DNA of 64,000 nucleotides. Origin: Radicibacter daui. GTDB lineage: Bacteria > Pseudomonadota > Alphaproteobacteria > Radicibacterales > Radicibacteraceae. Shown piece by piece: positions 11,655 through 18,409 of the stretch (its first letter is position 1; each line of letters begins with the position of its first letter). The stretch lies in the NCBI GenBank assembly GCA_030657355.1, contig CP131056.1, forward strand, positions 2,500,501 to 2,564,500. Direction: 5' to 3'. The notes under the pieces are model-generated. The model was not told where the DNA came from. It made no database searches and saw only the letters and a program-made list of their open reading frames with translations. The translations under genes and the position numbers were made by a program.

Positions 11655-11668
11655 TTGATCCTCGTCAA
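11655..11668. promoter_or_regulatory. FixK/FNR-type box between divergent genes
   Basis: TTGATCCTCGTCAA fits the TTG(A/C)-N6-(T/G)CAA FixK consensus. It lies between the alcohol dehydrogenase (leftward) and the phosphotransferase/ATPase gene (rightward). A -41.5 position would put transcription starts near 11620 and 11703, upstream of both genes. fixK itself is in this window. Confidence 0.65.
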
Positions 11669-13411: not shown

Positions 13412-13795
13412 ATGATCGAAAGACCCGTCCTTGAGCCCGGCCCCGACCATCCCATCACCATCGTACCCGCCGGCGTACGGGTTACCGTGACCAGCGGTGG
13501 CAAGATCATCGCTGACAGTGCGAGGGCGCTGGTGCTGGACGAGGCACATTACCCCTCCGTCTATTATATCCCGCGCGACGATGCCGACATGGCGCTGCTG
13601 GAAAGCAGCCCTCACCGGAGCTATTGCCCCTACAAGGGCGAGGCCAGCTATTTCAACCTGCCCGCCGGCGGTGAAAAGGCGAACAACGCGGTCTGGAGCT
13701 ACGAGGCTCCGCACGCAGCGGTAAAGGCCATAGCCGGTTATCTTGCGTTCTATACCGACCGTGTCGACAGCCTGGTCACCCGTCCGGTTCGCTGA
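13412..13795 (+). CDS. DUF427 family protein
   Basis: 127 residues from ATG 13412, with an AGGAAAGG ribosome site. The DUF427 fingerprint is clear: VTVTSGGKIIADSARALVL, then YYIPRDDADMALLE, and SPHRSYCPYKGEASYFNL. It is a small beta-rich fold of unknown biochemical role, with a conserved cysteine and tyrosine cluster. It follows the phosphotransferase/ATPase gene by about 130 bases and may share its transcript. Confidence 0.88.
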   Translation: MIERPVLEPGPDHPITIVPAGVRVTVTSGGKIIADSARALVLDEAHYPSVYYIPRDDADMALLESSPHRSYCPYKGEASYFNLPAGGEKANNAVWSYEAPHAAVKAIAGYLAFYTDRVDSLVTRPVR

Positions 13796-13915
13796 CGGCC
13801 CTTCTTTGGCAGGACAGTATCGCAGGGCTGGACGCTGACGGCGGCCGGCGCAATTATTCGCTGCCATATTTCAGACCCGGTGCTGCCGGGCCTGCGTTCA
13901 GCCAGGTTTGAGACG

Positions 13916-15472
13916 ATGCCGACAAGAGCCCTCCCTGCCGCCAGAGACCGGATCCTGCGGCTGTTTTCGGCCCGCCTGGAGGGCCCTGCCGGATATCTGC
14001 TCGCCATCGCCGCCGTGGCGGTCTGCCTTGCCGTGCGGTTGCTGCTGAGCAGCTTTCTGCACGACAATTCGACCTTCATCATCGTTATCCCCGCAGTTTT
14101 GCTGGCCGCCATTGCCGGCGGCACAGGGCCCGGGCTGCTCGCGGGCATTCTATCGGTCGGCGGGGCGCTGGCCGTAAACGGCGTCAACAACATCACCCCG
14201 ATGGATCAATGGCTGCAGCTGACGATCTTTTGCGTCGTTGCCCTTGCCATCATCTGGATGGGCGAAATGCTGCACCGGGAGCGCCGCACCATCGAGGAGG
14301 CCCAGGAGGCACTGGCTGCGCGTGAAGCCCATCTGCGCTCGCTGCTTGATACCATGCTCGATGCGACGGTGCTGATCCGGCAGGACGGCACCATTGCCTC
14401 CTTCAACGCCGCCGCAGTGCGCCAGTTCGGTTACAGCGAGGCAGAGGTTATCGGCCGCAACGTGCAGGTGCTGATGCCCGAGCCCTATCACCGCGAGCAT
14501 GACGACTATATCCGCCGATATCTCCAGACCGGTGAGCGCCGCATCATCGGCATCGACCGCGTGGTGGTCGGCCGGCGCAAGGACGGTTCCACCTTCCCGA
14601 TGAAACTTGCCGTCGGCGAGATGAAATCAGGCGGACAGACCTTCTTCACCGGCTTTATCCGCGATCTCACCGAACGGCAGGAATCAGAAGCCCGGCTGCA
14701 GGAAATCCAGAACGAGCTGGCCCGGCTCGCCCGGCTTAATGAAATGGGGGAAATGGCCTCCACCCTGGCGCACGAGCTCAACCAGCCGCTGGCGGCGATT
14801 GCCAATTACGCGCAGGGCTGCGTGCGCCTGTTGCAGAACATGGACGATGCCCTTGCCTCCCGCATGCGCGAGGCGCTGGCGGAAACCGCCCGCCAGTCCC
14901 TCAGGGCCGGCGGCATCATCCAGCACCTGCGCGAATTCGTGACCCGCGGCGAGACCGAACAGGTGCCGGAAGATATCTGCCGGCTGATCGAGGAGGCAGG
15001 CGCCCTTGCCCTTGTCGGCTCGCGCGAACGGGGCGTGCGCTCCCTCTTTGACTTCGCCCCCGATATCCGGCCGGTACTGGCCGACCGGGTTCAAATCCAG
15101 CAGGTGCTGATCAATCTCATGCGCAATGCCATCGAAGCCATGCGCGACAGCCCGAAACGCGAGCTGACGGTACGTGCCTTCGAGGACGGTACCGACATGG
15201 TTGCCGTCGAGGTGGCCGATACCGGCCCCGGAATCGCGCAGGAAGTTGCAGCACGGTTGTTCCAGCCCTTCGTTACCAGTAAACCAACCGGTATGGGGGT
15301 TGGCCTTTCCATCTGCCGGCGCATCGTCGAGGCGCATGGCGGCGAGATAACGGTCATCAGCAACGAGCATGGCGGCGCCACTTTCCGCTTCAGCCTGCCG
15401 GCACTGGAAGCTGCGCCAGGCGAAGGAATGGAAACGGCACAGGACGGGACCGGGAAAGCGGAAGTCAAATGA
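13916..15472 (+). CDS. fixL: Oxygen-sensing histidine kinase FixL
   Basis: 518 residues: four N-terminal membrane segments (about 27-120), a PAS domain (about 140-255), then dimerisation/phosphoacceptor helices with the histidine in [12 protein letters not shown] and a GHKL ATPase ([34 protein letters not shown]). The PAS domain is the heme type. The proximal ligand His of Bradyrhizobium FixL matches the His in YHREHDDYI, and exactly 20 residues later comes the Arg equivalent to Arg220 (GIDR) that signals oxygen release. Low oxygen should turn on autophosphorylation and transfer to FixJ. The start at 13916 was preferred over GTG 13880. It overlaps fixJ by four bases. Confidence 0.95.
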
Positions 15473-16089
15473 GCACGGATAACTACATCGTCCATGTCGT
15501 CGACGACGAGGAAGCCGTTCGCAAGTCGCTCGCCTTCCTGCTCACCATGTCCGGCCTTGCCGTAAAGATGCATGAAAGCGCCGCGGCCTTTTTGGCGGCG
15601 GCCCCCGGCATCCCGCCGGGCGTGCTCGTCACCGACCTGCGCATGCCCGACATGAATGGCGTCGAGCTCCTCTCTGCCTTGCGCGATGCCGGCGCCATGA
15701 TGCCGGCCATCGTCGTTACCGGTCATGCCGACGTTCCCATGGCGGTCGCCGCCATGAAGGCCGGCGCGCTCGACTTCATCGAGAAACCCTATTCCGACGA
15801 AGTGCTTATCGCCGCCATCCAGCGCGCGGCGGCAGAGATCGAAACCGCCTCGCCCGCGGGCGAGGATACGGCGGCGATCCTCGGCAAGATCGCCCAGCTG
15901 AGCGACCGCGAACGTCAGGTGCTTTCCGCCGTCGTCACCGGCCTTCCCAACAAGACCATCGCCTACAATCTCGATATCAGCCCCCGCACGGTTGAAGTGC
16001 ACCGGGCCAATGTCATGGCCAAGATGCAGGCCCGCAGCCTGCCGGAACTGGTGCGCATGGTGATGGCCGTTGAGGCTCCCGCAAAATAG
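15469..16089 (+). CDS. fixJ: Response regulator FixJ
   Basis: 206 residues: receiver domain with acidic pocket ([12 protein letters not shown]), phosphoacceptor Asp in [11 protein letters not shown], conserved Thr in VVTGHAD and Lys in IEKPYSD; then a LuxR-type helix-turn-helix ([20 protein letters not shown]...[13 protein letters not shown]). It is translationally coupled to fixL. Phosphorylated FixJ should activate fixK downstream, where a FixJ-like site is visible. Confidence 0.95.
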
Positions 16090-16111
16090 GCGCCGCCCGA
16101 TTGCGCGGGAT

Positions 16112-16125
16112 TTGATCTGCCGCAA
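16112..16125 (+). promoter_or_regulatory. FixK-type box before the receiver-like gene
   Basis: TTGATCTGCCGCAA matches TTG(A/C)-N6-(T/G)CAA. It lies 23 bases after fixJ and about 85 bases from the 16204 start, so a FixK-activated start near 16160 is feasible. Confidence 0.55.
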
Positions 16126-16203
16126 CGCCGGCCGGATGCAGCCGTGCTGTTCTCCTGTGACAAGCCCCCGACGCGCACAACAGGGGGCGAGGAGACTTCC
16201 CGC

Positions 16204-16551
16204 GTGGCTTATGCCCCTGTTCTCGTGATCGTTCCGCAAGGCGATCTTCAGCGTTCGCTCAGCTTCCTGATCGAGGCAGAGGGGTTTGCGGTCGCCCATT
16301 ACGGGACCCTGGCCGAAGCTTTCGGATCGTCCGCCGCCGCGAATGCGGCCTGCGCAATCGTCGACGACAAGGTGATTGGCAGCGGACAGGAAATCCGGAG
16401 CCACGCGGCGGCCTTCCCGCGCCCGATGATCCTGCTGGTCGAGCGCCCGGGCCTGCTGCCCGTCCTGCCACGCTGCGTCACCCTGACCAAACCCTTCCTC
16501 GGCCCGGCGCTGGTCGAGGCGGTCTGGACCGCCGCCTCGGCTCCTGCCTGA
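16204..16551 (+). CDS. Degenerate single-domain receiver, FixT-like candidate
   Basis: 115 residues from GTG 16204, with GAGGAG about nine bases ahead; ATG-less extension to 16144 is less likely. It follows the receiver fold order: PVLVIVPQGDLQRSLSFLIEAEGFAV, then CAIVDDKVIG, ILLVERPG, and VTLTKPFLGPAL. The Asp strand and the Lys of LTKPF remain, but the acidic pair is reduced to VPQGD and the Thr/Ser switch is replaced by LLVE. It has no output domain. Sinorhizobium FixT is a receiver-like inhibitor of FixL whose gene depends on FixK; position and the FixK-type box make this a good candidate. Sequence identity to FixT was not tested. Confidence 0.65.
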   Translation: MAYAPVLVIVPQGDLQRSLSFLIEAEGFAVAHYGTLAEAFGSSAAANAACAIVDDKVIGSGQEIRSHAAAFPRPMILLVERPGLLPVLPRCVTLTKPFLGPALVEAVWTAASAPA

Positions 16552-16585
16552 AGGGGAAGGCGCGGATGGCCAACCTTCCCTTTTC

Positions 16586-16599
16586 TTGACCCATATCAA
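16586..16599 (+). promoter_or_regulatory. FixK/FNR box before the 71-residue orphan
   Basis: TTGACCCATATCAA is a strong anaerobox (TTGAC-N4-ATCAA). A TATCAG at 16622-16627 is correctly placed as a -10 element, giving a start near 16634, about 44 bases before the gene. Confidence 0.75.
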
Positions 16600-16677
16600 C
16601 CCGCCCCTGTCAGGGAGCGGCTATCAGGAAGGCGAATGCTGCCACAGGCGCACGTGTAACGGCCGCACAGGACTTTC

Positions 16678-16893
16678 ATGACCAACATCGTCTCCCGCCT
16701 CGTCAACGACTGCAACCAGGCCCGCCGCTCCGGCGCCGATTTCCCGACGGTGTGGACTGCCGTGCTCAAGGAGCACACCTATATTGCCGGTTCACCCCGC
16801 CAGCAGATCTGCGGCACAACGCCTGTCCTGACCGTTCCCCTCATCACCGGGCAGGATCTGGTGTTTGACGGCGAGGTCTTTTCGCTCTCCTGA
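16678..16893 (+). CDS. Small orphan protein under a FixK-type promoter
   Basis: 71 residues, unrecognised. It begins MTNIVSRLVNDCNQARRSGA with a helical N-terminal half, then a beta-rich C-terminal half ending in FDGEVFSLS. It contains two cysteines (DCNQ, QICGTT) but no clear metal motif, membrane segment or signal peptide. The perfect FNR/FixK box upstream and the position between fixLJ and fixK indicate an oxygen-responsive small protein. Coding is supported by the box, the start position and composition, not by homology. Confidence 0.6.
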   Translation: MTNIVSRLVNDCNQARRSGADFPTVWTAVLKEHTYIAGSPRQQICGTTPVLTVPLITGQDLVFDGEVFSLS

Positions 16894-16909
16894 GTCCCTC
16901 GGGAGCCAC

Positions 16910-16921
16910 TAAGTAGATTCC
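16910..16921 (+). promoter_or_regulatory. Probable FixJ-binding site upstream of fixK
   Basis: TAAGTAGATTCC lies 80 bases before the fixK start and resembles the TAAGTAGTTTCC-like sequences bound by FixJ at rhizobial fixK promoters (from memory of the family, not aligned here). Confidence 0.5.
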
Positions 16922-17000
16922 ACTACGGACATAACTCAATTTCGCCGTCCGTCACTTAAGGCGAAGGTCTCCCCGTCAAATCGAGCGGGAGATCACCGAC

Positions 17001-17675
17001 ATGAACGCCATTGTCCAGCGCCCCCAGGCCTTCGCCCATCCGGCCATCGTCAACGCCATGGTTCTGGAACGCGGGCTGCCGGTGCTTCCTGTGGCCGGCG
17101 ATGTCGGCCTCTCCCAGCCGATCAGCAACTACAAGGCCGGCGAAGAAATCTATGCCCAGGGCGAAAAGGCCGACACGCTCTACCAGGTCGCCTTCGGCTG
17201 CGTGCGTGTCTACCGCCTGCTGGCCGACGGCCGGCGGCAGATTTCAGCCTTCCACCTTGCCGGCGACGTCTTCGGCTTCGAGAATGACGAGACCCACCAC
17301 TTCTTCGCCGAGGCGGTGAGTTCCGCCGGGCTGCGCAGCCTGCGCAAACCTTCCACCAGCGACGCTGCCACGCTGATGTTCCCCTTCACCCTGCGCAGCC
17401 TGGTGCGGGCGCAGGAACATCTGCTGGTGCTTGGCCGCCAGACGGCACTGGAGCGCATCGCCGCCTTCCTGCTCGACCTTGCGGAGCGCCAGGGCGGCCA
17501 TGACGAATTCGAGATGCCGATGCCGCGCAATGACATTGCCGACTATCTGGGCCTCACCATCGAAACCGTCTCGCGCAGTTTCTCCGAGCTGAAGCGCCAG
17601 GGTCTTATCCAGCTGAACGGGCTGCGTCAGGTGGAGCTGCTGTGCCCGCAGGACCTCAAGGACATGTGCTGCTGA
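17001..17675 (+). CDS. fixK: Crp/Fnr family regulator FixK
   Basis: 224 residues: a cyclic-nucleotide-like sensor domain (NYKAGEEIYAQGEKADTLYQVAFGCVRVYR is the barrel region; shown by key motifs only) and a C-terminal helix-turn-helix with recognition helix TIETVSRSFSEL. The E-SR pattern predicts TTGAT-type half sites. The N-terminus has no Fe-S cysteine cluster, which separates FixK from FNR. A FixJ-like site precedes it, and three FixK-type boxes occur within 5.5 kb, so it probably controls these neighbours as well as distant respiratory genes. Confidence 0.92.
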   Translation: MNAIVQRPQAFAHPAIVNAMVLERGLPVLPVAGDVGLSQPISNYKAGEEIYAQGEKADTLYQVAFGCVRVYRLLADGRRQISAFHLAGDVFGFENDETHHFFAEAVSSAGLRSLRKPSTSDAATLMFPFTLRSLVRAQEHLLVLGRQTALERIAAFLLDLAERQGGHDEFEMPMPRNDIADYLGLTIETVSRSFSELKRQGLIQLNGLRQVELLCPQDLKDMCC

Positions 17676-17698
17676 GCCAGACCGGCGGCAGCCTTACG

Positions 17699-18409
17699 TC
17701 AAAAACCCGTCGCCGGAATAGCCGCGCCGGTTACGGCACTCGCCCCCGGCGACACCAGAAAGGCCATAAGCCGCGCTAGCGACGCCGGCGCGAGCCAGCC
17801 GGAACGATCCGCCTCCGGCATGGCTGCCCGGTTTTGCGGTGTATCGAGCGTACCCGGCAGAATGCAGTTGGCGGTGATGCCATGGGCCCGGTTTTCAGCG
17901 GCCATCGCCTCCGTCAACCGAATGACGGCTGCCTTCGAAGCGGCGTAGGCCGCCTGTTTTGCTCCCGCCTTGAGACCCGGCGCCGCCGCCACATGCAGGA
18001 TGCGGCCATAACCCGCCTGCTGCATCACCGGCAGGACTGCCGCGCTGATCGTATAGGTGGTGCGGGCATTAAGGCCCAGCAGGCGGTCCCACTGGTCGAG
18101 CCCCTCCTCACCCACCGCCGCCATATCGAAGCCGCCCACGGTATTGACGAGCCCGCCAAGCCCGCCGAAATGCGACCGTACCGCCTCGACCGCTTGCCGG
18201 CAGACGGCCAAGTCACCCAGATCGAGGCCGGGCAGCTTCAGGCACTCGGTCCGGTCGGGCAGTGAAGCCACCAGCGCCTCAAGCTTTTTCGGGGTGCGTT
18301 CGGCAAGGGCCAGGCGAAAACCCTGGCTTGCAAGCTCGGCGGCAACTGCAGCGCCGAGATTTCCGGCAGCGCCGGTTATCAGCACGATATCTGCAGAACG
18401 GCCCGCCAT
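17699..18409 (-). CDS. SDR-fold protein lacking the catalytic serine
   Basis: 236 residues from ATG 18409. The Rossmann motif is TGAAGNLGAAVA and the YAASK pair of short-chain dehydrogenases is present. The usual NNAG is NTVGG, and where the catalytic serine should be (13 residues before the Tyr) the sequence reads HVAAAPG. So the cofactor site and Tyr-Lys pair remain but the classical Ser is missing. Function unknown; it may reduce a special substrate or be regulatory. It is convergent with fixK. Confidence 0.8.
   Translation of the reverse strand: MAGRSADIVLITGAAGNLGAAVAAELASQGFRLALAERTPKKLEALVASLPDRTECLKLPGLDLGDLAVCRQAVEAVRSHFGGLGGLVNTVGGFDMAAVGEEGLDQWDRLLGLNARTTYTISAAVLPVMQQAGYGRILHVAAAPGLKAGAKQAAYAASKAAVIRLTEAMAAENRAHGITANCILPGTLDTPQNRAAMPEADRSGWLAPASLARLMAFLVSPGASAVTGAAIPATGF

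Follow-up and report, generated by a model that had tools for sequence, protein, structure and literature searches.

What is the small gene that follows fixL and fixJ in Radicibacter daui, and could its product act back on the sensor kinase encoded just before it? We analyzed a window of 64,000 nucleotides of contig CP131056.1, where the plus strand between positions 13880 and 17675 encodes a FixL-type kinase, FixJ, an ORF of 115 residues, an ORF of 71 residues (ORF71), and a FixK-type Crp/Fnr regulator, all on the same strand. The initial annotation, made from the sequence alone, had taken the 115-residue ORF for a receiver-like protein of the FixT kind, lacking an output domain and closing a feedback loop on FixL. 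We find that the gene is very probably fixT, whose product would be a worn-down receiver of a known kind that turns its own sensor down.

The fixL gene (13880..15472, plus strand) encodes a sensor kinase with a DUF4118-type N-terminus and PAS, HisKA, and HATPase domains (Pfam), and an in-frame ATG 12 codons downstream may be its true start. Its top NCBIfam match is FixL, with 520.8 bits (under the cut-off of 850). It is 60% identical to FixL of Sinorhizobium meliloti, with which it shares a histidine that we take to be the heme ligand. The response regulator gene fixJ (15469..16089, plus strand) scores 295.6 bits with the NCBIfam FixJ model, over the cut-off of 255. The fixK gene (17001..17675, plus strand) encodes a Crp/Fnr-type protein with the Pfam domains cNMP_binding and HTH_Crp_2, whose top NCBIfam match is the FixK model of Caulobacter (202.8 bits, under the cut-off of 300). 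The ORF directly after fixJ, fixT (16204..16551, plus strand), starts at a GTG at 16204, nine bases downstream of a Shine-Dalgarno-like AGGAG (16190..16194, plus strand), and stops at 16549-16551. It encodes 115 residues, has no output domain, and shows a coding-like GC content by codon position (0.73/0.51/0.79). The order fixL-fixJ-fixT-fixK is the one found in S. meliloti: in the pSymA record of strain ml47, fixL, fixJ, and fixT succeed each other in the same way, FixT also has 115 residues, and the next gene, annotated just as helix-turn-helix, matches the window FixK at 6e-59.

We compared the window with the 80 fixL loci closest to its FixL, out of 115 confirmed relatives; judging by their titles they belong to Hyphomicrobiales. 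Since these loci were picked for their closeness to the window FixL and share ancestry, the counts given below are not independent. A FixT-like ORF lies directly 3' of fixJ in 73 of the 80 loci. Among the seven others, two (L047 and L061) stop at the edge of a contig, and five (L041, L045, L074, L075, and L077) are fixLJ-fixK loci that appear to have no FixT-like ORF; in L077, fixJ and the fixK frame are still about 475 bases apart. The protein set used below also amounts to 73 sequences, namely those of 71 relatives, S. meliloti, and the window, the truncated ORFs of L051 (68 residues) and L063 (80 residues) having been dropped from the protein counts. The family alignment (A3) comprises the window protein and 56 of the 71 relatives, without near-duplicates and without the S. 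meliloti copy, which comes from a plasmid. The FixT starts of the relatives were chosen by rule (a length near 115), so the lengths of the fixJ-fixT gaps are approximate.

Over 104 residues, the window FixT and that of S. meliloti share 33% identity (E 3e-12), whereas pairwise comparison with the window's own FixJ receiver gave no alignment. As its score against the full FixT profile is high by construction, we used a profile of the 56 relatives from which the window protein was left out. This profile gave 82.9 bits for the window FixT, 26.0 bits for the window FixJ ORF, and no more than 40.5 bits for any of 73 FixJ receivers. The homology of FixT to FixJ becomes visible by profile comparison (hhalign, with 12 of the 73 sequences on the FixJ side) and by fold, and the best match of the family profile among PDB sequences is FixJ (E 7e-9). 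A phmmer search of PDB sequences with the window protein alone returned nothing significant, the best hit being DctD (E 0.053) and FixJ following at 0.79.

Pfam found no family in the window FixT up to E 1, and at E 0.01 it recognizes one of the 57 members of the family alignment and misses 56, i.e., automatic annotation loses FixT. The best family match of the window protein is the NCBIfam FixT model (NF051882), with 23.5 bits for a cut-off of 150. Yet S. meliloti FixT itself obtains 28.8 bits, and the cut-off is therefore no criterion for FixT in the broad sense; five other relatives score between 15 and 40.9 bits, all under 150, and among 14 control genomes that of Caulobacter vibrioides alone passes. 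Pairwise identities within the set of 73 FixT have a median of 30.6%, and a family this divergent is therefore missed by databases and by single-sequence searches. The initial annotation had announced a divergent form that ordinary annotation would miss. The second part of this statement holds for Pfam, but "divergent" was an overstatement, since the window copy is 20-39% identical to the other FixT, which is ordinary within the family.

The NCBIfam FixT model had matches in 8 of 190 genomes of the class, none over the cut-off, and the window's genome was absent at E 1e-5. Three of the weak matches (loci L004-L006, at G041:C11, G168:C12, and G139:C9) lie in frames of 152-157 residues, at around 1.1 kb or less from the best FixL match in G041 and G139 and at around 216 kb in G168; they are possible Caulobacter-type FixT. 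The full FixT profile matched in 132 of 385 class genomes at 1e-9, where no more than 11 candidates were scored in each genome, with a best non-window score of 50.7 bits among the matches listed. Most of those listed sit in frames of more than 230 residues, which suggests that they are for the most part ordinary response regulators. In searches of the genus, family, and order, the window's own genome gave a second, weak match at C2:768109-768462 (E 2.4e-4), inside a frame of 275 residues. A tblastn search of plasmids returned three S. meliloti records only (30% identity, E 5e-3), and the fixT of pSymA was not returned. The three matches are in accessory plasmids (CP140952.1:41867-42190, CP140940.1:175750-176073, and CP140961.1:175761-176084), where they are annotated as transcriptional regulator; they are possibly further copies of fixT.

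The structure of the window FixT was predicted by AlphaFold2 with a pLDDT of 90.4 and a pTM of 0.86. Comparison with receiver folds, the check put forward in the initial annotation, returned a receiver fold: the first Foldseek match is FixJ of Bradyrhizobium (5xt2, E 2e-5), and the best 50 rows of VIA-align have Z-scores of 13.7-15.6 over 103-114 residues, nearly all of them receivers and many tied. In the joint alignment of FixT and FixJ, the acidic pair D-D present in 73 of 73 FixJ corresponds to V10-P11 in the window FixT; across FixT, column 10 is acidic in 2/73 sequences and column 11 in none of the 73. The switch threonine (71/73 FixJ) corresponds to V79, a column with Thr or Ser in 25/73 FixT. 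On the other hand, D54, which hhalign aligns with the acceptor Asp of FixJ, is kept in all 73 FixT and K96 in 71. The pattern of losses and retentions read from the single sequence, with the acidic pair and the Thr switch gone and the Asp and Lys in place, is thus borne out. The available text of PMC9430884 already describes FixT as lacking the two acidic receiver residues.

Five residues are invariant in the 73 FixT (F21, D54, L78, P97, and G100). Further FixJ-like residues are kept in or after helix alpha1: besides F21, these are S18 (70/73), L23 (71/73, with Ile in the window and Leu in most), and G27 (71/73). The face of this helix is the surface by which receivers dock on kinases. The spacing between L78 and P97 is 17-20 residues in FixT versus about 23 in FixJ (counted from the alignment), and the missing residues fall in helix alpha4. 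No helix of at least four residues is present in this stretch in the model of the window protein or in that of S. saheli FixT (L049, pLDDT 87.7), and confidence is low there in both. We found no mention of a missing alpha4 in the literature searched, mostly without subscription papers, and a word search of PMC7078487 gave zero occurrences of "helix" and "alpha 4", which is no proof of novelty.

If the protein is FixT, what controls its gene? A FixK-type box had been proposed about 85 bases ahead of it, and TTGATCTGCCGCAA (16112..16125, plus strand) indeed has its center about 85 bases, and its start 92 bases, before the GTG at 16204. The exact 14-mer occurs once in the genome of 5.06 Mb. The looser TTGAT-N6-CAA is found at 68 places (reversed control: 13), so the box alone proves little and it is its conservation that carries weight. 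The motif TTG[AC]N6[GT]CAA is present in 43 of 73 fixJ-fixT gaps (taken from 30 bases before the end of fixJ; reversed control: 0), in 40 of 73 when only the bases strictly after the fixJ stop are considered (shuffle mean 0.73, maximum 3 in 500 rounds), and in 20 of 31 clusters of FixT at 60% identity. The motif TTGAYN5RCAA, chosen after inspecting the misses of the previous one, reaches 68 of 73 gaps, as against none in the reversed control and a mean of 0.12 over 200 shuffles (at most 2). Its five misses are L025 and L066, which carry TTGA-N6-TCAA, and L029, L070, and L082, whose gaps measure at most 27 bases from the chosen starts. Although the loci share ancestry, the FixT proteins beside these conserved boxes have diverged to around 30% identity. 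Homology, gene order, receiver fold, and conserved box all agree with the original reading of the protein as FixT-like.

The FixK operator is given as TTGA-N6-TCAA in the available part of PMC13327599 and in a longer form in that of PMC4999443. The right half of the window box, CGCAA, is off this consensus. Across the 73 gaps the right half is GCAA in 41, ACAA in 27, and the canonical TCAA in 2, and the departure from the FixK consensus is therefore itself conserved.

Upstream of fixK lies a FixJ-type site, TAAGTAGATTCCACTA (16910..16925, plus strand), which agrees at 12 of 16 positions with the S. meliloti site quoted in the part of PMC4999443 available. Nowhere else in the window, on either strand, are 12 positions matched, and the best match in the window's fixJ-fixT gap is 8. 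Such a site, at 11/16 or better, precedes fixK in 51 of 69 loci (shuffled: 1/69) and fixT in 1 of 73, the stretches being shorter in the latter case. This supports two tiers of control, from FixJ to fixK and from FixK to fixT. On the opposing side, fixT may be cotranscribed with fixLJ across the 114-base gap. Scanning positions 13700-17750, we found no promoters or terminators. A GC-rich hairpin after the fixT stop was considered as a terminator and is not called one, because 25 of 200 shuffled sequences gave an equally good or better fold.

We consider it highly likely that the gene is fixT within a loop FixL -> FixJ -> fixK -> fixT -| FixL, where the binding and inhibition of FixL and the dependence on FixK are inferred from other species. 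At low oxygen, active FixL would phosphorylate FixJ, and FixJ~P would switch fixK on via the site at 16910. FixK would then switch fixT on via the asymmetric box at 16112, and FixT would dock on unphosphorylated FixL, block its autophosphorylation, and damp the response. Docking is probable since the FixJ-like alpha1 residues S18 and F21, the acceptor-Asp position, and the K-P loop are kept. In the absence of the acidic pair and of a regular helix alpha4, FixT would be neither phosphorylated nor able to pass a signal on. In S. meliloti and Caulobacter, FixT inhibits the autophosphorylation of FixL, and its own phosphorylation was not observed, according to the available text of PMC7078487, which cites S. 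meliloti papers of 1997 and 1999.

These observations bear on three other accounts of the gene. A single-domain receiver could drain phosphate from FixL or FixJ, and the conservation of the acceptor D54 and of K96, described above, speaks for such a sink. However, the acidic pair is gone both in the window and family-wide, and the lack of observed phosphorylation in S. meliloti and Caulobacter is found in the accessible text of PMC9430884 as well as of PMC7078487, making this account very unlikely. We give even less credence, close to none, to a pseudogene in decay that arose by copying of the fixJ receiver. Low identity, the loss of catalytic residues, and the truncated copies of L051 and L063 might point that way, but the frame is open with a coding-like composition, five residues are invariant in 73 proteins, and the upstream box is conserved.

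The third account accepts FixT and adds an input through cysteine, of redox or metal type, on the model of Caulobacter FixT, whose stability is controlled by an Fe-S cluster. All but one of the 73 FixT have Cys50, which lies four residues N-terminal of D54, and C64 of the Caulobacter protein, to which window C50 may correspond, is called broadly conserved in FixT in the available text of PMC7078487. Still, the window protein has Cys50 and Cys91 only, the 4-Cys motif is absent, 33 of 73 FixT have a single Cys, and Fe-S binding appears restricted to Caulobacter in the same text; we regard such an input as unlikely. It is conceivable, if rather doubtful, that selection keeps the box asymmetric so that the FixK site is weak by design, in which case FixT would be a delayed brake, acting late and only once FixK has built up, and that in this same family, with alpha4 lost and a near-invariant Cys kept, a thiol input is ancestral to FixT rather than an invention of Caulobacter.

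Between fixT and fixK, the window has a perfect FNR/FixK box, TTGACCCATATCAA (16586..16599, plus strand), ahead of ORF71 (16678..16893, plus strand; GC by codon position 0.59/0.46/0.83). Among the loci with a fixK frame, the window alone has a perfect box at this place. The 71-residue product, so far undescribed, has no Pfam or NCBIfam match. Its relatives were found in two Mesorhizobium, namely Mesorhizobium sp. B2-1-8 (L115:4995-5207, 52% identity) and M. sangaii (L116:1498-1713, minus strand, 45% identity), and all three members have a perfect FNR/FixK box ahead of them (L115:4919-4932 and L116:1749-1762 in the relatives). Searches for ORF71 covered 289 class genomes, where the window's own was the one to match, and 42 genomes carrying fixL loci, where one matched; one plasmid record was a hit as well. 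In L115:3166-10204 the homologue is near NnrS, a helix-turn-helix regulator, an MFS transporter, and nitrate reductase alpha, neighbors that hint at anaerobic nitrogen-oxide metabolism.

The perfect form TTGAYNNNNRTCAA occurs at 12 places in the genome (reversed control: 3). Five of these were searched for families, and the genes behind them encode cytochrome bd oxidase subunit I, 5-aminolevulinate synthase, two Usp-domain proteins, and an APH/AAA_33 protein. In the window, a perfect box, TTGATCCTCGTCAA, is located at 11655-11668, upstream of a gene whose product has APH and AAA_33 domains. In Caulobacter, heme synthesis is under FixLJ and damped by FixT (PMC7078487, available text).

In our searches of its genus, family, and order, the window's own genome was the sole representative, and the gene set FixL-FixJ-FixK-FixT is complete in this lineage. 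Yet identity of the window FixL is 65-67% with FixL of Mesorhizobium, against 48-54% with its best matches in the three other genomes of the class that we searched, and the fixLJTK cluster may have moved by lateral transfer. The finding of fixT is real but mostly ordinary. Less ordinary are the asymmetric box, the absence of alpha4 in the models, Cys50, and ORF71. The conserved box, the missing helix, and the near-invariant cysteine provide testable handles on the inhibition of FixL by FixT and on its timing.

How does this locus compare with known systems? S. meliloti FixT (pSymA, ml47) resembles the window protein in gene order, in its 115 residues, in 33% identity, in the loss of the acidic pair, and in the motifs C-A-I-V-D-D and T-L-T-K-P-F, and it also has a box ahead, TTGATCTCGCGCAA. 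What sets the window apart from S. meliloti is the extra ORF71 that separates fixT from fixK, preceded by an FNR/FixK box of its own. The FixT of Caulobacter crescentus, which binds an Fe-S cluster, is likewise a single-domain receiver in a FixL/FixJ circuit, whereas the window protein lacks the 4-Cys motif and scores far under the NCBIfam FixT cut-off. Finally, Osp of Rhodobacter sphaeroides is, according to the part of PMC9430884 available, like FixT a receiver-like inhibitor of a histidine kinase that lacks the two acidic residues and provides negative feedback, but it acts on CckA, whereas FixT acts on FixL.
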